This document shows, in pieces, positions 132 to 13,572 of a stretch of 64,000 nucleotides of DNA. The position numbers were made by a program, and so were the translations under genes. A model generated the notes under the pieces. It made no database searches. It saw only the letters and a program-made list of their open reading frames with translations, and was not told the origin of the DNA. Each line of letters starts with the position of its first letter. Within the stretch, counting starts at the first letter, position 1. This DNA is from Paracoccus sulfuroxidans (GTDB lineage: Bacteria; Pseudomonadota; Alphaproteobacteria; Rhodobacterales; Rhodobacteraceae), in NCBI RefSeq assembly GCF_007830335.1, contig NZ_VLKU01000001.1, forward strand, positions 1 through 64,000, read 5' to 3'.

Positions 132-2806
<2,675 letters not shown>

Positions 2807-2807
<1 letters not shown>

Positions 2808-3778
2808 CAGTTCACCCGATCGCGCGGTTCGCGCCCTGCAAAGAAGTCTTCCAGATTGTCGATGACCCGGAAGCCCATGGCCTCGCGCGCTTCGCGGGTC
2901 GCGCTGCCTAAGTGTGGCAGCATGACCAGACGCTCGCTTTGCTTGAGGTCGGGGTTGATCGTCGGCTCGCCGTCGAAGACGTCCAGTGCCGCGCCGCCGA
3001 TGGTTTCATACCACAGCGCCTGCGCCAGCGCGCTTTCGTCGATGACCTCGCCGCGCGCCGTGTTGATCAGATAGGCGTCAGGACGCATCAGACCCAGGCG
3101 GCGTGCATTGATCAGGTGGCGGTTGGCCGCGCCCCCGGGACAATGCAGCGAGATGAAGTCACATTCCGGCAGCAGCTCGTCGATCGAGGCGATCTGCGTG
3201 GCCTTGTTCTGGGCCAGCACCTCGGGGGCGACGGGGCTGCGGTTATAGGCCAGGATCTTCATCCCGAAGCCGTGGTGGGCGCGCCGGGCCATTTCCTGCC
3301 CGATGCGTCCGTATCCGATGATCCCCAGGGTCTTGCCCGAGACTTTCGTCCCGACCAGATGCGTCGGACGCCAGCCGGTCCACTCGCCCGCGCGCAGCTC
3401 ACGTTCGCCTTCGCCGGCGCGGCGCGCCACCATCAGCATCAGCGTCATGGCCAGATCGGCGGTGCATTCGCTCAGCACGTCGGGCGTGTTGGTCACGACA
3501 ATGCCGTGACCCGAGGCGCGCTCGACGTCGATGTGGCTGAAGCCGACACCGTAATTCGCGAAGATGCGGGTTTGCGGGCGTTCGATCTCCATCGAAGGCG
3601 TGCCGAGCTTGTCGGTCACCGTCGGCAGGATCGCATCGTACTGGCCCATGGCAGCCCGAAATTCTTCGGGCTGCATGGGCTTGTCGTCACGGTTCAGCTG
3701 AACTTCGAAGAGGTCATTGAGACGCGCTTCGACAGCAGCGGGCCAGCGACGGGTGACAAGAACCCTGGGTTTCGCCAT
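2807..3778 (-). CDS. D-2-hydroxyacid dehydrogenase, probable hydroxypyruvate/glyoxylate reductase
   Basis: A 323-residue NAD(P)-dependent D-isomer 2-hydroxyacid dehydrogenase. The nucleotide-binding GYGRIG is at 155-160, and the catalytic triad is visible as Arg242 (NTARG), Glu271 (DGEP) and His289 (LPHLGSAT). In this setting it most likely reduces hydroxypyruvate, formed from serine by the aminotransferase, to D-glycerate. By eye it resembles the GyaR/GRHPR branch more than Methylobacterium HprA, so the symbol hprA is not assigned. It starts 13 bases after mtkB and overlaps ppc by one base. A glyoxylate reductase is the main alternative reading. Confidence 0.9.
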
Positions 3779-3791
3779 CTTTCCCCCCTGT

Positions 3792-4673
3792 TTACTGCAT
3801 GGCCCGGGCGATGGTCTCGCCGATCACAGCCGGGTTTTCCGCAATGGTGACACCGGCAGCGGTCAGGATCTCGACCTTTTCCGAGGCGCTTTCGCCGAAG
3901 GCCGAGATGATCGCGCCCGCATGGCCCATGGTGCGGCCTTTGGGTGCGGTCAGGCCCGCGATATAGGCGACGACCGGCTTCGTGACGTGGTCGCGGATAT
4001 AGTCCGCGGCTTCCGCCTCTTGCGGGCCACCGATCTCACCGATCATGCAGATGATGTGGGTGTCGGGGTCGTTCTCGAACTGCTCGAGGACATCCTTGAA
4101 GGACGAGCCGTTGATCGGGTCGCCACCGATGCCGACCGAGGTCGAGATGCCGAGGCCACGCTCTTTCAGCTGCGCTGCAGCCTCATAGCCCAGCGTGCCC
4201 GAACGGCCGATGATGCCGACGTTGCCCTGCAGATAGATGTGGCCCGGCATGATGCCCAGCATCGCTTTGCCGGGGCTGATCGTGCCCGCACAGTTCGGGC
4301 CGGTCAGCACCATCCGCTTTTCCTTCGGGTAGCGGTACATGTAGCGCTTCACGCGGATCATGTCCTGCGCCGGGATGCCGTCGGTGATGCAGACGCAGTA
4401 GCGGATGCCCGCATCGGCGGCTTCCATGATCGAGTCGGCAGCCGAGGGCGGCGGCACGAAGACCAGCGAAGCTTCGGCGCCGGTGGCCTCGACGGCCTCC
4501 TTGACGGTGTTGAACACCGGAACGCCTTCACAGGTCTCGCCACCTTTGCCGGGGACGACGCCGCCGACAACATTGGTGCCATATTCGATCATTTCCTTGG
4601 TGTGGAAACGGGCCATCTTGCCGGTGATGCCCTGAACGATGACGGGGGTGTCGCTATCCAGAAAAATGCTCAT
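3792..4673 (-). CDS. mtkB: malate-CoA ligase (malate thiokinase), alpha subunit
   Basis: This 293-residue protein belongs to the succinyl-CoA synthetase alpha family, with the N-terminal CoA-binding fold ([10 protein letters not shown] near 11-20) and the phosphohistidine loop GHAGAI (His251). With MtkA it makes malyl-CoA from malate, CoA and ATP, which malyl-CoA lyase then splits. Succinyl-CoA synthetase is the paralogous alternative, but the location between sga/mtkA and hpr/ppc supports malate as substrate. It begins one base after the mtkA stop, so the two subunits are translationally coupled. Confidence 0.9.
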
Positions 4674-4674
4674 C

Positions 4675-5871
4675 TCAGACGACTTTCAGATTGGTGTTGC
4701 GGGCATTGTCGCTTTTCCATGCAGCGACGACACGTTCAGCGGCCTCGTTCAGCGTGGTGGCGCGGATCAGGGGAAGACCGCTTTGCGCGATGATCTTCTG
4801 ACCTTCTTCGACATTGGTGCCAGCCAGGCGCACGACCACCGGCACGTCGACCGGGTTTTCGCGCAGAACCTTGACCACGCCCTCGGCCACCCAGTCGCAA
4901 CGGTTGATACCGGCGAAGATGTTGACCAGCACGGCCTGCACGTTCTTGTCCGACATCACCAGACGGAAGGCTTTCGCCACACGCTCGGGCGTTGCACCGC
5001 CGCCGATGTCGAGGAAGTTCGCAGGCTCGCCACCGGCCAGCTTGATCGTGTCCATGGTGGCCATGGCCAGACCGGCACCGTTCACGATGCAGCCGATGTT
5101 GCCCTCAAGACCGACATAGGAGAGGCCGCCGTCTGCCGCACGCGATTCACGCGGGTCTTCCTGCGACTTGTCGCGCAACTCGGCCACCTGCGGGTGACGG
5201 AACAGAGCGTTGTTGTCGAAGGTCATCTTCGCGTCGAGCGCCAGGATGCGGTCGTCCGAGGTGATCACCAGCGGGTTCACTTCGACCATGGTCGCGTCGA
5301 GTTCGCGGAAGGCGCGGTAGCAGCCCTTCAGCGTGCGCACCATCTGCTGGATCATCGCCGGCTTGATGCCAAGCGCGAAGGCGATTTCGCGGCACTGGAA
5401 TTCCTGCAGACCGACAGCCGGTTCGACCGTGGCGCGCACGATGCTTTCCGGACGCTCGGCCGAGATTTCCTCGATCTCCATCCCGCCTTCACCCGAGGCC
5501 ACGATCATCACGCGCTGGCTGGCGCGGTCCAGAACGAAGCCCAGATAGATTTCGCGGGCGATCGGCACAGCCGCTTCGACATAGACGCGGTAGATGCCTT
5601 TGCCTTCCGGGCCGGTCTGATGCGTGACCAGCTTCTGGCCGAACATCTCTTCGGTGACCTGCTGGATCTCGGTGTCGCTGTTACAGACCTTGACGCCGCC
5701 AGCCTTGCCGCGACCGCCTGCATGGACCTGAGCCTTGACGACCCAACGGTCGCCGCCCAGTTCGCGGGCGCGGTAAGCTGCCTGCTCGGGGCTGTAGGCC
5801 AGCGCGCCCGGTGCGATTCCGACCCCGAAATTATTCAGGATCTCTTTCGCCTGATACTCATGAATGTCCAT
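4675..5871 (-). CDS. mtkA: malate-CoA ligase (malate thiokinase), beta subunit
   Basis: A 398-residue ATP-grasp beta subunit. It opens with [12 protein letters not shown], has the basic [11 protein letters not shown] nucleotide-binding stretch near 52-62, an EVNPLV metal-binding motif near 202-207, and the C-terminal CoA-ligase region with [13 protein letters not shown] and [15 protein letters not shown]. The last block and [15 protein letters not shown] closely match the methylotroph MtkA sequence as I recall it, while ordinary SucC is also related. A strong ribosome site (GGAGG) precedes the ATG. It lies 25 bases after sga and is paired with mtkB. Confidence 0.9.
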
Positions 5872-5896: not shown

Positions 5897-7144
5897 TTAC
5901 TCGGCGGCGACAGCGGTCTTGTAGTGACGCTCAAGGCCAGCCATGACGGTCTGCATGTCGATATTGGCGCCCATGGCCGACATCTCGTCAGCGAAGCGCT
6001 GCACGATCTCGGTGATGGCGCGCTGGTTCAGCAGGTTCAGGATGCCGATGCGGACCTGGACGGGCTCGGACAGCGTCGGCCAGATGCCGAAGCCTTTCGA
6101 GCGGCAGGTCTGGACCAGTTCCTGTTCGCGGCCAGCAAGGCCATCGGGCAGGTTCAGAACGACCAGCGAGGTCATGTCCGAGGTCACCTTGCAACCCATC
6201 GCGGTCACGGCTTCACGCAGCGCGGCCTCGTGGAACGCATAGTCGCGGGCGCGCTTGGCCACGGTCTGCTGCAGCGTGATGCGCAGCGCTTCGTGGAAGG
6301 CGCAGACGGCATAGGCGCTGTGGGTGCGGTGATAGGTGCCTTTTTCGACGTCCTTGCCGTCGACGATGCCCCAGTGACGCGCTTCCAGGATCGGGTGGTG
6401 CACGAAGGTACGGGTCCCGGTCTTGCGCAGGTTCGCGATATAGCGGTCCGAGAAGGACACCGGCGCATAGGTCAGCGGCAGACAGCAGATGCCCTTCTGC
6501 GGGCAGGAGGCCCAACCATGGACGCCCGGGAAATCATCGATGGCGAAATCTTCGACGCCCAGCGACGACACGGCGTCGACCAGACCCATCACGTCATGCT
6601 TTTCACAGGCATCCGAGAAGCCGCGGATGTCGTTGATGCGGCCCGAGCCGGTTTCCCAATGCGCCATGGCGGCCCATTTCGGCTTGTGCTCGGCCAGCGC
6701 CTTCTCGACGATCTCGCCGGTGACCGACTGGCCATGCGGGACGTTGATGATGGTGACCGAGGCGGGCTGGGGGTCCAGCGGGTTCGCGGCCAGCTCCTCG
6801 GCGGTCGAGGCTTTCATGCGGACGGTCAGCCCGTCGATGCCCGAGAAGGTGCCGTTCACGAACATCACCACCTTGTCGCCGGGCAGAACGGCGCTGAACA
6901 GCGTATCAAGGCCGCTCCAGCCGGTTCCGGCCACGCCGAAGGTGTAGACATTCCTGGTCCCCATGACTTCGCGCAGCATCAGCTTGCACTCGACCATGCC
7001 GCGCAGGACGTCTGCCTGCATGTGGTCGGCCACGCCTGCACTGGCAAAACGCTGCAGGACTCGCGGATCGGTGTTGCCGGGCCCCGGACCTGCTGCCAGC
7101 GTCGGGGGGATCTCAAGCTGCCCGAAGATCGTTGCTTCAGTCAT
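5897..7144 (-). CDS. class V PLP-dependent aminotransferase, probable serine-glyoxylate aminotransferase
   Basis: The predicted protein is 415 residues from the ATG at 7144, which has an AAGGGAA ribosome site; the open frame extends 21 codons further but without support. The fold-type I class V pattern is clear: GPGNTDP near 20, GVAGTGWSGLD near 70, DAVSSLGVED near 190, and the PLP lysine in CPQKG (Lys217). The expected reaction is serine plus glyoxylate to hydroxypyruvate plus glycine, the entry of glyoxylate into the serine cycle. It is clearly divergent from Methylobacterium SgaA (CPQKG instead of GSQKG), so alanine-glyoxylate or another amino donor is possible. It is the first gene of the minus-strand operon. 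Confidence 0.82.
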   Translation of the reverse strand: MTEATIFGQLEIPPTLAAGPGPGNTDPRVLQRFASAGVADHMQADVLRGMVECKLMLREVMGTRNVYTFGVAGTGWSGLDTLFSAVLPGDKVVMFVNGTFSGIDGLTVRMKASTAEELAANPLDPQPASVTIINVPHGQSVTGEIVEKALAEHKPKWAAMAHWETGSGRINDIRGFSDACEKHDVMGLVDAVSSLGVEDFAIDDFPGVHGWASCPQKGICCLPLTYAPVSFSDRYIANLRKTGTRTFVHHPILEARHWGIVDGKDVEKGTYHRTHSAYAVCAFHEALRITLQQTVAKRARDYAFHEAALREAVTAMGCKVTSDMTSLVVLNLPDGLAGREQELVQTCRSKGFGIWPTLSEPVQVRIGILNLLNQRAITEIVQRFADEMSAMGANIDMQTVMAGLERHYKTAVAAE

Positions 7145-7256
7145 CGTTGTTTCCCTTTGATCTACTAAACTGAATGACAGGAAAAACCTTAACGGGCCTT
7201 TCAACAACGTCAGTTGCTCCTGCTTTTTGATATTTCTTTTGGTAGGAAATCGACTA

Positions 7257-7271
7257 TACTAATGGGTAGTT
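7257..7271. repeat. operator-like direct repeat, copy 1 (TACTAATGGGTAGTT)
   Basis: This is the first of two near-identical words in the intergenic region between sga and the divergent regulator. It starts with TACTAAT and contains the inverted TACCCAT, both fitting the TACYNMT-type heptamers known for NarL-family binding sites. Its centre is about 41 bases from copy 2, close to four helical turns. Function as an operator is inferred. Confidence 0.45.
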
Positions 7272-7296
7272 CTGCGACTTTTCGCGGAGACATGCC

Positions 7297-7313
7297 TACC
7301 TAAATGGGTGGTT
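7297..7313. repeat. operator-like direct repeat, copy 2 (TACCTAAATGGGTGGTT)
   Basis: This second copy differs from copy 1 by two single-base insertions and one substitution (TAC-C-TAA-A-TGGGTRGTT). It lies just upstream of the regulator start codon at 7325 and covers the upstream in-frame ATG at 7304, which supports the later start. Binding of the adjacent regulator here would allow autoregulation and control of sga in one place. Confidence 0.45.
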
Positions 7314-7324
7314 TTAGGGGCGAA

Positions 7325-7978
7325 ATGAACAACTCTGGGACGAAAGATTCGGTAATTTCGATCATGCTGGCCGACAGCAACCCGCTGGTTCTCAGCGCGA
7401 TGGCCGAGGTGTTCGAGCGTCATCCGCGATTCTCTCTGGTCGCGACGGCCTCGACGGCCGAGGGCTTTCTGGGAACGGCCATGCGGGTTCCGGCGCAGGT
7501 GGGCGTGATCGACTGGAACCTGCCGATTCTGGGCGGCGCGCGGCTGCTTGAGGTGCTGCGCGAACAGGAGCACGCGCCGCGCATCGTGGTTTACGCCGAT
7601 GAGGGCAGCGATGCGCATCTGGGCGCGCTTGGGGCAGGGGCGGCGGGATTCGTCGCCCGCAACGGCCCGGTCGAGGCGCTGCTGGAGACCTGCGCCTCGG
7701 TTGCGGCGGGGCGGATGATCTTCCCCTATCTAGACGTTCGGCAGTTGCAGAACGACCCGATGAACATGCTCTCGAAACGCGAGACGAAGATGCTCGAGGC
7801 GTTGGCGACCGGGATGACGAACCGTGAACTGGCCCAGCAATTCGGCATCACCACCAACACCGTGAAGTTCCACCTGTCGAACCTTTACGACAAGCTGGCG
7901 GTGAAAAACCGGGCTCAGGCCATCGCGTTTTTCTATTCCAACAACCAGGGCCGAAAGCCCGACACAAGTGGCAGATGA
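7325..7978 (+). CDS. NarL/LuxR-type regulator with atypical receiver domain
   Basis: A 217-residue two-domain protein. Residues about 11-140 form a response-regulator receiver and 148-205 a LuxR/GerE helix-turn-helix (LSKRETKMLEALATG, then TTNTVKFHLSNLYDKL). The candidate phospho-acceptor Asp63 is kept (VIDWNLP). The usual acidic pair is Asp17-Ser18, the conserved Thr/Ser is Tyr90 and the conserved Lys is Arg112, so classical phosphorylation switching is doubtful. No histidine kinase is nearby. The start at 7325 has an AGGGGC ribosome site. Divergent from sga and directly upstream of mclA, it is the obvious candidate regulator of the serine-cycle genes. Confidence 0.88.
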   Translation: MNNSGTKDSVISIMLADSNPLVLSAMAEVFERHPRFSLVATASTAEGFLGTAMRVPAQVGVIDWNLPILGGARLLEVLREQEHAPRIVVYADEGSDAHLGALGAGAAGFVARNGPVEALLETCASVAAGRMIFPYLDVRQLQNDPMNMLSKRETKMLEALATGMTNRELAQQFGITTNTVKFHLSNLYDKLAVKNRAQAIAFFYSNNQGRKPDTSGR

Positions 7979-8090: not shown

Positions 8091-9065
8091 ATGAGCTTCC
8101 ATCCTATTGAACAAGCCCAGGCACGCCTGAATCGCAGCGAGCTGGCCGTCCCCGGCAGCCAGCCCAACATGTTCCAAAAAGCAGCGGAATCAGACGTTGA
8201 CGTGATCTTCCTCGACCTCGAGGACGCAGTTGCGCCCGATGAAAAGGCGCAGGCGCGCAAGAACATCATCAAGGCCCTGAACGAGATCGACTGGGGCAAA
8301 AAATCGATGTCCGTGCGAATCAACGGCCTCGACACCCACTACATGTATCGCGACGTCGTCGACGTCGTGGAACAGGCGGGCGAGCGTCTGGACCTGATCA
8401 TGATCCCGAAAGTGGGCACCGCCGCCGACGTCTATGCCGTCGACATGATGGTGACGCAGATCGAGGATGCGAAGGGCTATAAAAAGCGCATCGGTTTCGA
8501 GCACATCATCGAAACCGCGCTTGGCATGCAGAACGTCGCGGCCATCGCCGGCGCTTCGAAGCGCAACGAAAGCCTGCATTTCGGCGTTGCCGACTATGCG
8601 GCCTCGACCCGTGCACGCACCACCGTCATCGGCGGCGTGAACGAGCATTACTCGGTCCTGACCGATCCGGCGGCCGATGGCTCGCGTCAGATCCATTGGG
8701 GTGACATGTGGCACCACGCGCTGGCGACCATGGTCGTCGCCGCCCGCGCGAACGGCCTGCGCCCGATCGACGGTCCCTTCGGCAACTTCCAGGACCCGGA
8801 TGGCTACAAGGCCGCCGCTTATCGCGCCGCCGTTCTGGGCTGCGAAGGCAAATGGGCGATCCACCCCAGCCAGATCGCTCTGGCGAACGAAGTGATGAGC
8901 CCCTCGGCTGCTGAAGTCGAGCGTGCTGAAAAGATCCTGAAGGCGATGGCGGAAGCCGAAGCCGCAGGCAAAGGCGCGGTGTCGCTGGACGGCCGCCTGA
9001 TCGACTACGCGTCGATCCGTCAGGCTGAAGTGCTGGTCCAGAAGGCTCGTCAGATCGCCGCCTGA
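8091..9065 (+). CDS. mclA: L-malyl-CoA lyase (possibly also beta-methylmalyl-CoA)
   Basis: A 324-residue CitE-like lyase that splits malyl-CoA into acetyl-CoA and glyoxylate. Arg76 (VRING), Glu141 (IIETALG) and Asp168 (GVADYAAS) correspond to CoA- and Mg-binding residues of the family. Blocks such as SELAVPGSQP, IFLDLEDAVAPD and THYMYRDVVD resemble the Methylobacterium enzyme more than Rhodobacter sphaeroides Mcl1. The ATG at 8091 follows AGGAG; an upstream in-frame start at 8040 lacks conservation. It is 112 bases after the regulator on the same strand and is followed by a strong hairpin, so it is probably its own transcription unit or co-transcribed with the regulator. Confidence 0.93.
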   Translation: MSFHPIEQAQARLNRSELAVPGSQPNMFQKAAESDVDVIFLDLEDAVAPDEKAQARKNIIKALNEIDWGKKSMSVRINGLDTHYMYRDVVDVVEQAGERLDLIMIPKVGTAADVYAVDMMVTQIEDAKGYKKRIGFEHIIETALGMQNVAAIAGASKRNESLHFGVADYAASTRARTTVIGGVNEHYSVLTDPAADGSRQIHWGDMWHHALATMVVAARANGLRPIDGPFGNFQDPDGYKAAAYRAAVLGCEGKWAIHPSQIALANEVMSPSAAEVERAEKILKAMAEAEAAGKGAVSLDGRLIDYASIRQAEVLVQKARQIAA

Positions 9066-9090
9066 GGCCTAGATCTGAGTGAAAATGACT

Positions 9091-9114
9091 GGCCGGAGCA
9101 TCGCTGCTCCGGCC
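9091..9114 (+). terminator. hairpin terminator of mclA
   Basis: A perfect 9-bp stem, GGCCGGAGC pairing with GCTCCGGCC around a 6-base loop, starts 25 bases after the mclA stop. There is no long T-run, so termination efficiency is uncertain. A second weaker hairpin (GGG-TCGCC/GGCGA-T-CCC) follows at 9138-9160. Confidence 0.6.
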
Positions 9115-9379
9115 AATCTGCGTTTGACCGTCGATTAGGGTCGCCGCTTATGGCGATCCCGAATCTGACGCGAACCCGCTATTAACTTCTATTATAATAT
9201 ATATTAAACAACTAACTATCTACGTATTCTGAAGTAAATTGTAGGTACTGTTCCAGTGCTCACGGCGGGCGGGACCGCGCCCATCAACCCATTCCCTCCC
9301 GGTCAGAGCTTGAATCGCCCGCCCCGGCGGGGAATATGCAGAGGCGATTGCGGGACGAAAGCAAAGGGACGACCTTCAG
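9115..9379. other. gene-free AT-rich spacer
   Basis: No gene was found here. The stretch 9178-9245 is strikingly AT-rich for this genome and includes a TATAAT at 9193-9198 and an ATATATATTAAA run. It probably carries the promoter of the downstream glycosyltransferase-like gene, but no convincing -35 element pairs with the TATAAT. Confidence 0.5.
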
Positions 9380-10594
9380 ATGAGCGGTCAGGATGCCGGG
9401 AAAGACGATGCGCAGGCCCTGAAGGCAGAGCTTAAAGCCCAAGAGCGCGCCAACCGTCAGGCTGCGAACAAGGCCGAGCGTGAGGCGCGGCGCGAAGAGA
9501 ATAAGGCCAAGCGTCAGGCCCAACGCAAGCCCGCTGCACCGGCCCGTACCGAAGCGCCGAAGCCCCGCGTCAAGCGCAAGCCCGCCGCGCTGCCCCCTCC
9601 CGCCATCCAGACCCGGCCTTTCAACATCCTGCTGGTCGGGCAAAACGGCGCGATTGGCCGTCAGGCGGCGATCTTTGCCGCGAGCCTTCGGCGCAACTCG
9701 CCGCAGTGGCAGGGCAGGCTGATCGTGGCCGAGCCGCAGAACGACGGCGCCTGGTCGGACGCGCAGGTGCGCATGACGCAGCCGACCCGCGATGCGCTGA
9801 CCGCTTTCGGGGCGGAAATCCTGCCCTTCACCGCCCAGCATTTCGGCCGCTCTTATCCCTATGGCAACAAGATCGAGGCGCTTGCGGTCCTGCCCGCGGA
9901 TGAGCCCTTCATCTTCTTTGACAGCGACACGCTGGTGACCGGCCCGCTGGAAAGCCTGGCACTGGATTTTGCGCGCCCCTCGGCCTCGATGCGCCGCACG
10001 GGGACCTGGCCGCAGCCGCCGCTTTACGGCCCCGGTTTCTCGGGTATCTGGAAATCGCTCTATGACCGGTTCGGCCTCGATTTCGCCTCGACGCTGGACC
10101 CCAGCCAGCCCGATGAGCATTGGGAGCATTACCTCTACTTCAACGCAGGCTGGTTCTTCGGGCCGGACCCCGCTGAATTCGGTCGCCGCTTCCTCGCATG
10201 GGCGCGCGCCGTCCGGGACGAGCCGGGCGATGCGCTGGCCTGCCAGAGCCTCGATCCGTGGCTTGATCAGGTGGTGCTGCCGCTGGTCATCCATTCCTTG
10301 GGCGGCGGGCGTCCCGATGCGGCCCTCGACGGTCTCGACGGGGCGGTCACCTGCCACTACCGCAACCTGCCGCTGATGTACGCGCGCGAGAATGAGCAGG
10401 TCCTAGATACCTATGAGGCCGTGACGCGTGACCCCGCGATTGCCCCCTTGATGCAGGGCGATGAAGAGTTTCGCCGCGTGGTCACCGAACAGGGTGGGCG
10501 CGATGTGATCCGTCCGATGTTCGAGGCCGAGATCGACGCCATGCCCGAAAACCTGCTGCGCCACCGCCTGCGCAAAGAGGGCTGGTGGTTCTGA
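9380..10594 (+). CDS. putative GT-A-type glycosyltransferase-like protein
   Basis: A 404-residue protein with two parts. Residues 1-75 are very rich in Lys, Arg, Glu, Ala and Gln and look like a charged helical extension ending in a Pro-rich linker. From about residue 80 a globular domain begins (PFNILLVGQNGAIGRQA) with a DSD motif in FIFFDSDTLV near 183, the metal/nucleotide-sugar signature of GT-A glycosyltransferases. No signal peptide or membrane segment is seen. Substrate and partner are unknown. It stands alone between the AT-rich spacer and a bidirectional terminator. Confidence 0.6.
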   Translation: MSGQDAGKDDAQALKAELKAQERANRQAANKAEREARREENKAKRQAQRKPAAPARTEAPKPRVKRKPAALPPPAIQTRPFNILLVGQNGAIGRQAAIFAASLRRNSPQWQGRLIVAEPQNDGAWSDAQVRMTQPTRDALTAFGAEILPFTAQHFGRSYPYGNKIEALAVLPADEPFIFFDSDTLVTGPLESLALDFARPSASMRRTGTWPQPPLYGPGFSGIWKSLYDRFGLDFASTLDPSQPDEHWEHYLYFNAGWFFGPDPAEFGRRFLAWARAVRDEPGDALACQSLDPWLDQVVLPLVIHSLGGGRPDAALDGLDGAVTCHYRNLPLMYARENEQVLDTYEAVTRDPAIAPLMQGDEEFRRVVTEQGGRDVIRPMFEAEIDAMPENLLRHRLRKEGWWF

Positions 10595-10614
10595 CGCCCA
10601 CGCCCCGGAAATAA

Positions 10615-10642
10615 AAAGGCCCGCTGTTTTCAGCGGGCCTTT
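10615..10642. terminator. bidirectional rho-independent terminator
   Basis: A 12-bp perfect stem (AAAGGCCCGCTG with CAGCGGGCCTTT) closes on a TTTT loop between two convergent genes. A-rich and T-rich flanks on either side let it serve both the glycosyltransferase-like gene and ileS. Confidence 0.85.
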
Positions 10643-10647
10643 GTCAC

Positions 10648-13572
10648 TCAGCGCAGGCTCAGGGCCTCATCGCAGCGGGCGCAGGTGCCCGGATGCTTAT
10701 GCTCGCCCACATCGGGCAGGATCTTCCAGCAGCGCTGGCATTTCTCGCCTTCGGCGGTCTCGAAGACCACGCCGACGCCCGGCACCTCGGCCAGACGGAA
10801 CGCTTCATTCGGGGCCGGATCGCCGGTCAGCACCAGATCCGAGGTGATGCAGACGGTGGCGAAATCGACCGATTGCAGCGCCGCCAGCACCGGGGCATCC
10901 TCGACATGGATCACCGGTGCCGCCTCCAGCGACGAGCCGATGACCTTGTCCGCCCGCTTCAGCTCCAGCGCCGCCGTGACCACGCGCCGCGCCCGGCGGA
11001 TCGCGTCCCATTTCTGAGCCAGAGGCTCGTTCAGCCAGGCGGCAGGCGTCACCGGGAAGTCGTGCAGATGCACGCTGTCATCCTCGCCCGGGAAGCGGCT
11101 CAGCCAGACGTCCTCCATGGTGAAGGGCAGGATCGGCGCGAGCCAGGTCACCAGACGCTGGAACAGGATGTCCAGCACTGTGCGCACCGAACGCCGCTCC
11201 AGCCCCGAAGGCGCGTCGCAGTAAAGCGCGTCCTTGCGGATGTCAAAATAGAAGGCCGACAGATCGGTGGTCGCGAACTGGAAAAGCGTCTGGAACACGC
11301 CCTGGAAGTCATAGGCGTCATAGCCCTTGCGCAATTGCTGATCCAGCTGCGCCAGACGGTGCAGCACCCATTGCTCCAGCTCGGGCATGTCCTTGGGCTC
11401 GACGCGCTCGGCCTCGGTGAACCCGTCGAGGTTCCCCAGCACGAAGCGCAGCGTGTTGCGCAGACGGCGATAGCTGTCGGCGGTGCCCTTCAGGATCTCT
11501 TTGCCGATGCGCAGATCGGCGGTGTAATCCGATTGGGCGACCCAAAGACGCAGGATATCCGCGCCATATTCCTTGATGACATCGGCGGGCGAGACGGTAT
11601 TTCCCAGCGATTTGGACATTTTCATGCCCTTCTCATCCAGGGTGAAGCCATGCGTCAGCACGCCGCGATAGGGCGCGCGGCCCCGCGTCGCACAGGCCTG
11701 CAACATCGAGGAATGGAACCAGCCGCGATGCTGGTCGGTGCCCTCAAGATACAGATCCGCAATCCCGTCGGGCGAGCCATCGGCCCGGTCACGGATCACG
11801 AAGGCATGGGTCGAGCCGGAGTCGAACCACACATCCAGCACGTCCATGACCTGAACGTAATCCTCGGGCGCGGCAACGCCCTCCAGCATGCGGGCCTTGA
11901 AGTCCTCGGCATACCAGGCATCGGCACCGTCCTTCTCGAAGGCGGCGATGATGCGGTCGTTGACGCGCTGGTCGCGCAGCAGGAAGTCCTCGGCATCGGG
12001 CTTGGCACCCTTGCGCACGAAGACGGTCAGCGGCACGCCCCAGGCGCGTTGACGCGAGAGCACCCAGTCGGGCCGGTGCTCGATCATCGAGAACAGACGG
12101 TTCCGCCCGGTCTGCGGCGTCCAGCGCACCAGCTTGTCGATCGAGGTCAGCGCACGGCTGCGGATCGTCGTGCCATATTCGTCCATGCCATCGCCCAGCA
12201 CCTTGTCGATGGCGGCGAACCACTGCGGCGTGTTGCGATAGATCAGCGGCGCTTTCGAGCGCCAGCTGTGCGGGTAGCTGTGCTTGATCTTGCCCTTGGC
12301 CAGAAGCCCGCCCGACCAGGCCAGCTGCTTCAGGACCGAGACATTGGCCGGGCCCTCGCCCCCTTCCGGGGTGATGATCGCCTGCCCGCCGAACAGCGGC
12401 AGATCGGGGCGATAGCTGCCGTCCGGCTCAACGTTATAGGTCATCGGCAGGCCGAACTTCAGACCCAGCTGATAGTCGTCATCGCCATGCGACGGCGCGG
12501 TATGGACAAAGCCCGTGCCCGCGTCATCGGTGACGTGATCGCCCGGCAGCAGCGGGACGTCATAATCCCATTCGCCATTGCCACCCTCGACGCCACGGAA
12601 CGGATGCGACAGCACCAGCCCCTCCATATCGGCGGCGGTGACATCGGCGAGGCGGGTAAAGCTTTCGACCTTCGCGGCCTTCATCACCGCCTCGGCCAGC
12701 GCATCGGCCACAACGATCAACTCACCCGCCTTGGCGGTCGCATTCTCGGCCACCTCGCCCAGCTCATAGAGCCCATAGGCGATCTCGGGGTGATAGGCGA
12801 CGGCGCGGTTCTGCGGGATGGTCCAGGGCGTCGTGGTCCAGATCACCACGCTCGCGGGCTTCTTCGTTGCAAAAATACCCTGCGACGTCTCCACCGGGAA
12901 TCGCACCCAGATCGTGTGGCTGGTGTGGTCGTGATATTCGACCTCGGCCTCGGCCAGCGCGGTCTTCTCGACCGGAGACCACATGACCGGCTTCGACCCC
13001 TGATAGAGGCTGCCGTTCATCAAAAGCTTCATGAACTCGGCCGCGATCACCGCCTCGGCGTGATAGTTCATCGTCAGGTACGGATCGTCCCATTTCCCGG
13101 TCACGCCCAGACGCTTGAACTCTTCACGCTGCGTCTCGACCCAGCCCTCGGCGAATTTGCGGCATTCCTGACGGAACTCGACGATATCGACATCGTCCTT
13201 GTTCTTCTGCTTCAGGCGGTATTGCTCTTCGATCTTCCATTCGATCGGCAGGCCGTGGCAGTCCCAGCCCGGCACATAGCGGGCGTCGCGGCCCATCATC
13301 TGCTGGCTGCGGGTGATGAAATCCTTCAGCACCTTATTCAGCGCATGCCCGATGTGCAGGTTGCCGTTCGCATAGGGAGGGCCGTCATGCAGGATGAAGG
13401 GCGAGCGGCCCTTCTCGCGGCGCAGGCGGTCATAGATGCCCAGACGCTCCCAGCGGGCCAGCCATTCGGGCTCGCGCTGCGGAAGGCCTGCGCGCATCGG
13501 AAAATCGGTTTCGGGAAGAAACACCGTGTCACGGTAATCGGGCGCGGCGGTGTCGGTCTTGGTGTCGCTCAT
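10648..13572 (-). CDS. ileS: isoleucyl-tRNA synthetase
   Basis: A 974-residue class I aminoacyl-tRNA synthetase charging tRNA-Ile. The HIGH motif is at 73-76 (NLHIGHALNK), the KMSKS loop reads KGMKMSKSLGN, and the C-terminal zinc site shows paired cysteines (CQRCW and CARC). The large editing (CP1) domain lies between them. Length and domain order match bacterial IleRS. It is a single gene, convergent with the upstream-facing terminator and divergent from the monooxygenase. The opposite strand is open throughout but is a codon-bias shadow. Confidence 0.98.
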   Translation of the reverse strand: MSDTKTDTAAPDYRDTVFLPETDFPMRAGLPQREPEWLARWERLGIYDRLRREKGRSPFILHDGPPYANGNLHIGHALNKVLKDFITRSQQMMGRDARYVPGWDCHGLPIEWKIEEQYRLKQKNKDDVDIVEFRQECRKFAEGWVETQREEFKRLGVTGKWDDPYLTMNYHAEAVIAAEFMKLLMNGSLYQGSKPVMWSPVEKTALAEAEVEYHDHTSHTIWVRFPVETSQGIFATKKPASVVIWTTTPWTIPQNRAVAYHPEIAYGLYELGEVAENATAKAGELIVVADALAEAVMKAAKVESFTRLADVTAADMEGLVLSHPFRGVEGGNGEWDYDVPLLPGDHVTDDAGTGFVHTAPSHGDDDYQLGLKFGLPMTYNVEPDGSYRPDLPLFGGQAIITPEGGEGPANVSVLKQLAWSGGLLAKGKIKHSYPHSWRSKAPLIYRNTPQWFAAIDKVLGDGMDEYGTTIRSRALTSIDKLVRWTPQTGRNRLFSMIEHRPDWVLSRQRAWGVPLTVFVRKGAKPDAEDFLLRDQRVNDRIIAAFEKDGADAWYAEDFKARMLEGVAAPEDYVQVMDVLDVWFDSGSTHAFVIRDRADGSPDGIADLYLEGTDQHRGWFHSSMLQACATRGRAPYRGVLTHGFTLDEKGMKMSKSLGNTVSPADVIKEYGADILRLWVAQSDYTADLRIGKEILKGTADSYRRLRNTLRFVLGNLDGFTEAERVEPKDMPELEQWVLHRLAQLDQQLRKGYDAYDFQGVFQTLFQFATTDLSAFYFDIRKDALYCDAPSGLERRSVRTVLDILFQRLVTWLAPILPFTMEDVWLSRFPGEDDSVHLHDFPVTPAAWLNEPLAQKWDAIRRARRVVTAALELKRADKVIGSSLEAAPVIHVEDAPVLAALQSVDFATVCITSDLVLTGDPAPNEAFRLAEVPGVGVVFETAEGEKCQRCWKILPDVGEHKHPGTCARCDEALSLR

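Follow-up and report, generated by a model that had tools for sequence, protein, structure and literature searches.

A family of pseudo-receiver regulators that probably controls serine-cycle and Calvin-cycle operons without aspartate phosphorylation

There are several described regulators with which the protein studied here can be compared. QscR of Methylobacterium is a LysR-type, metabolite-responsive regulator of the same pathway, the serine cycle. It responds to formyl-H4F, NADP+, acetyl-CoA, and glyoxylate (PMC3486813), and a reference title in that paper describes it as a CbbR homologue. Thus, one family, LysR, serves both the serine and the Calvin cycles. Neighbouring pathways are regulated by the ScfR family (RamB and PccR), of which RamB of P. 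denitrificans binds CoA-thioester intermediates (PMC10370305). ScfR-like genes lie beside 34 of 98 malate-thiokinase loci, but these proteins differ from the regulator studied here in having HTH_3 and ScfR domains and no receiver. MxaB is an orphan response regulator needed for the mxa methanol dehydrogenase genes (PMC5784242). The present protein likewise appears to be an orphan regulator found in methylotrophs, a likeness of description and not of compared sequence. In the parts of PMC4543880 and PMC5934484 that were covered, no regulator is named for the serine-cycle genes of methylotrophs of the Paracoccus/Roseobacter group. LuxR occurs there twice in PMC4543880, on the serine-cycle cluster of P. 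aminophilus, for DmfR, and neither "regulator" nor "LuxR" occurs in the covered text of PMC5934484.

Receivers that have lost their active-site residues are known from other pathways. In a canonical receiver the second acid of the pocket binds the metal directly (PMC12632262, section 7), and section 5 of the same review defines the pseudo-receiver. JadR1, RedZ, HP1021, VpsT, BldM, and WhiI each combine a receiver fold without these residues with a DNA-binding domain, as does the present protein. JadR1 and RedZ are inhibited by ligands (PMC12632262, section 20). The targets of these examples are antibiotic, developmental, redox, and c-di-GMP-linked genes (PMC12632262; BldM and WhiI from titles). 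The words Calvin, methylotroph, serine cycle, and carbon fixation are missing from the main text of this 2025 review, which terms the switching of bacterial pseudo-receivers a mystery.

The window, meaning the whole stretch of Paracoccus sulfuroxidans DNA that was analysed, is 64 kb long. Its contig begins at window base 1, which truncates the serine-cycle island on the left. The features are as follows.

132 to 2807, minus strand: phosphoenolpyruvate carboxylase (ppc; PF00311, E 2.7e-203)
2807 to 3778, minus strand: hydroxypyruvate/glyoxylate reductase-like D-2-hydroxyacid dehydrogenase (hpr; PF02826 and PF00389)
3792 to 4673, minus strand: malate thiokinase alpha subunit (mtkB; succinate--CoA ligase alpha models over cut-off; named from its position beside mtkA)
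4675 to 5871, minus strand: malate thiokinase beta subunit (mtkA; NF010647, 713 bits, cut-off 604)
5897 to 7144, minus strand: serine-glyoxylate aminotransferase-like class-V aminotransferase (sga; PF00266, 22.0 bits against a cut-off of 21.5), divergent from the regulator
7253 to 7270, no strand assigned: weaker second palindrome, 42 bp upstream of the first (9.0 bits)
7295 to 7312, no strand assigned: operator-like palindrome CCTACCTAAATGGGTGGT, just upstream of the regulator start (24.4 bits)
7325 to 7978, plus strand: NarL-type orphan regulator of 217 amino acids, pseudo-receiver plus LuxR/GerE HTH (Pfam, alignments, AlphaFold)
8091 to 9065, plus strand: malyl-CoA lyase-like protein (mcl; PF03328, E 4.5e-37), downstream of the regulator

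The names sga, hpr, and glyA rest on Pfam class and context. The Fhs, FolD, and glutamate-synthase-like genes, as well as those around locus L101, were named by eye.

The regulator has the domain order and fold of NarL, DesR, and VraR. Pfam places both Response_reg (PF00072; E 4.1e-10, 40.2 bits) and the GerE/LuxR HTH (PF00196; E 1.3e-18) above their gathering scores, as in a NarL/FixJ-type protein. The AlphaFold model has a pLDDT of 84.6 and a pTM of 0.62. In a fold search its receiver matches those of VraR, DesR, and M. tuberculosis NarL (Z 20.6 to 21.0); the top rows are all ordinary response-regulator receivers and so are uninformative on a ligand. Unlike in NarL, DesR, and VraR, the pocket is incomplete, and with 84.1 bits the protein stays below the NarL cut-off of 250. 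For NarP and MctR it scores 83.6 (cut-off 343) and 87.1 (300), and among the NCBIfam matches listed it reached no equivalog cut-off. The protein also differs from QscR in family. Neither the LysR HTH and substrate domain of the QscR/CbbR type (Pfam at E up to 1) nor PF09856, the ScfR C-terminal domain, was found in it. The start at 7325 appears to be the better one, because an alternative upstream ATG in the same frame, at 7304, sits within palindrome 7295 to 7312 and a ribosome-site-like AGGGG precedes the ATG at 7325.

No kinase domain and no LysR domain was found by Pfam in 28 distinct window ORFs, which are part of those between 0.1 and 31 kb of a contig that ends at base 1. As far as the window was scanned, the regulator appears to be an orphan gene, as are JadR1 and the other atypical response regulators. 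An earlier note on this DNA had said that LysR is absent and that no kinase gene is near, which holds for these 28 ORFs. It had also read the ORF at 7325 to 7978 with Asp63, Ser18, Tyr90, and Arg112, and the translation gives exactly these.

The receiver reads D17, S18, D63, Y90, and R112. The pocket was compared across 57 orthologues and relatives, a set that counts the window's own copy, a fragment (L050), a gammaproteobacterial sequence (L051), and a Calvin-type relative (L068). Residue 18 is S in 26, G in 15, A in 7, R in 6, and N and K in one each, with one gap. The second, metal-binding acid is thus missing from all 56 sequences that cover the position, never being D or E. The switch Thr/Ser is replaced by Tyr90 in 56 of the 57 and the conserved Lys by Arg112 in 55, and Trp64 is invariant (57/57). 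The PF00072 match with the second acid, T, and K replaced agrees with the sequence definition in section 5 of PMC12632262; by that definition the protein is a pseudo-receiver on its sequence, and it lacks the complete phosphorylation pocket of a canonical two-component response regulator. There are 35 receivers above the Pfam cut-off in the same genome, and this one scores lowest. Thirty of the other 34 were aligned. All 30 keep the second acid, the Asp, and the Lys, and 29 keep the switch Thr/Ser (one has Ile); none of the 30 resembles the regulator.

D17 and D63 are each present in 55 of the 57 sequences, the exceptions at position 63 being Glu in L067 and Gly in L068. This conservation speaks for an inefficient but real response regulator, in which a distant orphan kinase or acetyl phosphate would phosphorylate Asp63 and so drive dimerisation. 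According to PMC12632262, substitutions in the DD, T, or K positions need not ablate phosphorylation (section 20), and pseudo-receivers that keep the Asp may act as less efficient response regulators. Against it stand the loss of the second acid and the near-uniform Tyr and Arg described above, as well as the natural Glu at Asp63 in L067. Such a regulator is considered unlikely, and relatives that share the operator bear on it further below. L067 is an orthologue from the same genus (genome G020) and offers a natural test of the need for the Asp.

Cysteines were also compared. Cys123 is found in 55 of the 57 sequences, and a Cys at position 110 takes its place in 16 of 18 distant-relative rows. 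A redox switch could be built on such a residue, with a disulphide formed between subunits, and the pseudo-receivers RitR and HP1021 are under redox control (PMC12632262, section 20). The position of the cysteine differs between branches, though, and a pairing partner was not identified. This makes a redox switch distinctly improbable.

The regulator is tightly linked to the serine-cycle genes. An orthologue scan of genome contigs, seeded by six short peptide patterns and so favouring close relatives, gave 54 loci, of which 52 hold orthologues at 52-80% identity. The remaining two loci, L053 and L054 (Bacteroidota, 25-27%), were excluded because they are not orthologous. A close orthologue occurs in 52 of 390 genomes of the order (E at most 2e-77, with the next two matches near 1e-36). 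Malate thiokinase passes its family cut-off in 97 of the 390, in one of them twice, for a total of 98 loci. None of the 52 close orthologues is more than 3.6 kb from malate thiokinase, measured from match start to match start, so that all 52 count as near; this count used 60 of the 98 malate-thiokinase matches, and the omission of other low-scoring rows could only lower it. The 3.6 kb maximum itself comes from G445, whose regulator is a 36% relative and is not among the 52. The regulator is present in all 50 genomes whose malate thiokinase scores at least 705 bits (Fisher p 5e-38). The sga-like gene is the conserved divergent neighbour in relatives and mcl is the usual downstream one. The regulator adjoins one-carbon assimilation genes in many marine and soil bacteria. 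The same arrangement of regulator and serine-cycle genes is carried by a plasmid of P. alcaliphilus, and a plasmid of P. aminovorans carries an orthologue of the regulator.

Some further observations were made on the island. In relatives (L174), serine hydroxymethyltransferase comes after PEP carboxylase. A DUF4147 (glycerate kinase-like) gene lies directly after mcl in P. alcaliphilus, G389, and G240; it has no match in the window (9066-10650) or in L001, and a 404-aa ORF at 9380-10594 of the window has no Pfam match. A 34% relative is encoded on Aminobacter aminovorans plasmid pAA01 (L250), directly after PEP carboxylase and glyA. No palindrome match was found beside it, and sarcosine oxidase genes are nearby.

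The gap between sga and the regulator carries palindromes of the form CCTACCCNNNNGGGTAGG. The site at 7295 to 7312 is the only matrix match of at least 10 bits in the 64 kb window. In an alignment of 20 of the 55 gap regions, blocks of the gap are strongly conserved amid otherwise diverged genomes. Strict half-site pairs occur 34 times at spacing 4 and 15 times at spacing 8 in the 55 regions, against 0.1 in mononucleotide shuffles in each case. The matrix was built from 57 sites in these 55 regions, so scores there are circular. With that limit, 52 of 54 gaps (the window's own included, mostly training regions) contain a site scoring 8 bits or higher, and 33 contain two or more. The commonest spacings between sites in the 54 gaps are 43 (17), 42 (9), 24 (8), and 41 bp (5); the count omits L067, whose start was mis-set. 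The 42 bp between the two window palindromes is about four helical turns, and this spacing suggests that dimers on the palindromes may sit on one face of the DNA.

The operator looks local. Across 13 stretches, 260 kb in all, taken from eight regulator-bearing genomes, four of them outside the training set (G192, G240, G389, and G341), matches of at least 10 bits fall in the sga-regulator gap with two exceptions, L173:12034 (10.7 bits) and L179:14372 (16.1 bits). A wide regulon was looked for with a simple 16-mer and found no support. In 24 regulator-bearing genomes this pattern matched 90 times and the reversed control 119 times; in 20 genomes that lack the regulator the counts were 60 and 94. 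In the window's own genome there were 6 against 8, and no match was found in G011 and G261, which both have the regulator, or in G258. As the 16-mer is not enriched genome-wide across the 44 genomes, operator and regulon appear to be local. The palindrome at L179:14372, away from the regulator gap, is a possible second target.

The position of the main palindrome just before the regulator's own start suggests autoregulation. This also favours a protein that can always bind DNA and whose activity depends on how much of it is present or on a protein partner, no small ligand being involved. Indirect control of pseudo-receivers is the subject of sections of PMC12632262. Such control is rather unlikely here, since strong selection acts across the 57 sequences on pocket residues that are not obviously needed structurally. 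A search by eye for -35 and -10 elements in the gap alignment gave no promoter that could be assigned. A GTATACC element of Roseobacter gaps is missing from several Paracoccus. The loss of pocket residues could also indicate a decaying receiver carried along by linkage, with no regulatory role at the island. This is scarcely credible, given 52-80% identity retained across genera, invariant residues in the HTH and at the pocket sites, a fixed position, and conserved palindromes.

The family is wider than the serine cycle. A relative that is 42% identical (L068/L102) sits before FBPase and phosphoribulokinase genes, and its gap holds a perfect CCTACCCGAACGGGTAGG (24.8 bits). A search with this protein matched 15 of 385 genomes of the class, its own included. 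Neighbourhoods were determined by tblastn and by eye, with Pfam for part of the loci; the transketolases of L239-L241 and the phosphofructokinase of L241 were named by eye. The neighbours are as follows.

L102, L237, L239: FBPase and phosphoribulokinase
L240, L241: phosphofructokinase and phosphoribulokinase
L242: phosphoribulokinase
L238: transketolase, aldolase, and epimerase
L244, L246: GAPDH
L245, L247, L248: malate thiokinase cluster
L243: aminotransferase

No recognised assimilation gene was found near L236 or L101. Seven loci of distant relatives thus adjoin Calvin-cycle genes, and two adjoin GAPDH. All seven genomes of the class with this type of phosphoribulokinase have the regulator (p 2.7e-11), in six of them within 2 kb. 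RuBisCO is found in 8 of the 15 regulator genomes and in none of 11 others, which were drawn from the listed negatives and not matched for lifestyle. The seven Calvin-type loci and L236 fall in the 8 RuBisCO-bearing genomes. The genomes of the GAPDH loci L244 and L246 gave no RuBisCO match, so that "Calvin cycle" does not fit them. At L102, the regulator is near FAD-oxidase and CCG-domain genes that resemble glycolate oxidase.

The palindrome accompanies this wider family. An independent operator test used a matrix trained on serine-cycle gaps only and 13 distant loci; L245 was left out as a serine-cycle locus of the window's type, and its two sites score 24.3 and 23.0 bits at a distance of 44 bp from each other. 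Eight of the 13 loci have a site of at least 12 bits no more than 350 bp from the regulator, with none elsewhere in 189,748 bases (3 elsewhere at 10 bits). Of 200 column-permuted matrices, none reached 8 loci (mean 0.15, largest 6). Sites were present in 6 of 7 Calvin-type loci (not L238), both GAPDH loci, and none of the four others. The loci without one are L236, L238, L243, L247, and L248, of which L247 and L248 are malate-thiokinase loci. The recognition region, NTVKFHL.NLY.KL.V.NRAQA, is nearly identical in the serine-cycle and Calvin groups.

The acceptor position differs in these relatives. In 14 wider-family sequences it is Gly in 12, Glu in one (L248), and Asp in one (L245, the serine-cycle locus), and all 8 distant loci with a site of at least 12 bits have Gly. 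Other relatives have Ser, Ala, or Glu. The operator therefore accompanies the family with or without an acceptor, which argues further against phosphorylation of Asp63 as the switch. A tree separates the family from 8 canonical NarL-type proteins (100/99). Within the family, the Asp-bearing serine-cycle clade has support of 100/99 and is placed amid lineages that lack the Asp. Asp63 is paired with Arg112 in 54 of the 57 sequences and Gly63 with Lys112 in 10 of 13 rows outside the type-2 group described below; one reading is that residues 63 and 112 may form a structural pair. The earlier note had taken Asp63 as kept. This is so in 55 of 57 sequences but may be too simple, as the Asp in the serine-cycle clade may have been regained. 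The tree is weak in its deep order, with bootstrap not settled and long branches flagged, which makes regain a possibility and not a result.

Taken with these comparisons, it is judged likely, short of assured, that the protein is a phosphate-independent pseudo-receiver factor, probably switched by a metabolite, that controls the serine-cycle operon and its own gene with mcl through the palindromes. In the mechanism that we infer, from DNA binding and dimer geometry to control direction, phosphate independence, and ligand, the regulator would bind the palindromes as a dimer, and dimers on sites 41-43 bp apart would sit on one DNA face. From the sga-regulator gap it would control the divergent sga-mtkA-mtkB-hpr-ppc operon (glyA too in relatives) as well as its own gene with mcl. 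Activation would be a guess. The regulator would be switched without Asp phosphorylation, and the receiver pocket, with phosphotransfer lost, may bind a metabolite that occurs in both serine-cycle and Calvin-cycle growth. Across the family, control of serine-cycle and Calvin-cycle operons is probably exerted without Asp phosphorylation.

Phosphate-independent control appears most likely because the same operator occurs with Asp-less relatives and the Asp clade lies among Asp-less lineages. By itself it leaves the strong conservation of Asp63 in the serine-cycle clade unexplained. The likeliest signal would be a metabolite bound by the receiver, since QscR responds to metabolites and ligand-controlled pseudo-receivers are known. 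Candidate ligands are glyoxylate or glycolate, a C3 phospho-acid (phosphoglycerate or PEP), and a pyridine nucleotide. The glycolate-oxidase-like genes near the L102 regulator would make glyoxylate/glycolate attractive. A more far-reaching idea is tentative and less likely than not: a family unrelated to LysR-type CbbR and QscR would use the former phosphorylation pocket to sense an intermediate shared by the serine and Calvin cycles and would switch both kinds of operon through one palindrome, Asp63 having been regained as a partner of Arg112 and not as a phospho-acceptor. The regulator may represent a type of carbon-assimilation switch that had so far gone unrecognised.

The earlier note had proposed that an unphosphorylated or ligand-sensing NarL-like protein, not described for this pathway, controls the island. 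Its interpretation stands in part. Control of the island is supported on comparative grounds by locked synteny and conserved gap palindromes, and switching other than by ordinary phosphorylation is likewise supported, by relatives with the same palindrome but no acceptor Asp. Novelty held up in searches of open-access literature, which gave no description of this regulator by title or start of abstract. The scope is widened by the Calvin-cycle relatives. The regulator may fill a gap as a candidate for the serine-cycle genes of the Paracoccus/Roseobacter group, and in other alphaproteobacteria its family is a candidate for the control of Calvin-cycle operons. For the question of how pseudo-receivers are switched, the family brings probable targets, an operator of short length, and only a few candidate signals. 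This is relevant to biotechnology based on one-carbon compounds and CO2.

Other regulators are found at the remaining malate-thiokinase loci. At these 46 loci, examined by tblastn in stretches of 5.9-17.5 kb, a different regulator is nearby in all but one: 34 are ScfR-like, 10 have a type-2 NarL-type regulator (L103-L106, L111, L185, L187, L189, L190, and L202), one is intermediate (L100), and one (L203) has none of the three regulator types looked for. The type-2 receiver reads D R G V M in most, with Gly for Asp, and by its sequence is even deader than that of the regulator at 7325 to 7978. It accompanies a separate class of malate-thiokinase cluster. Type-2 gaps hold related GGGTAGG/CTACCC elements by eye. 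The palindrome is not claimed as a general feature of type-2 loci, as the matrix supports a gap site of at least 10 bits in 3 of 11 loci, the 10 of type 2 and the intermediate L100 (L103, L104, and L100). The 34 ScfR loci served as a control; over 566,028 bases they gave 13 matches of at least 10 bits but no match that reached 14. These ScfR-like loci (L107-L110 and 30 further loci) form a third class of malate-thiokinase cluster; they were called by similarity to L108, in which PF09856 was confirmed. For this class an acyl-CoA signal is suggested.
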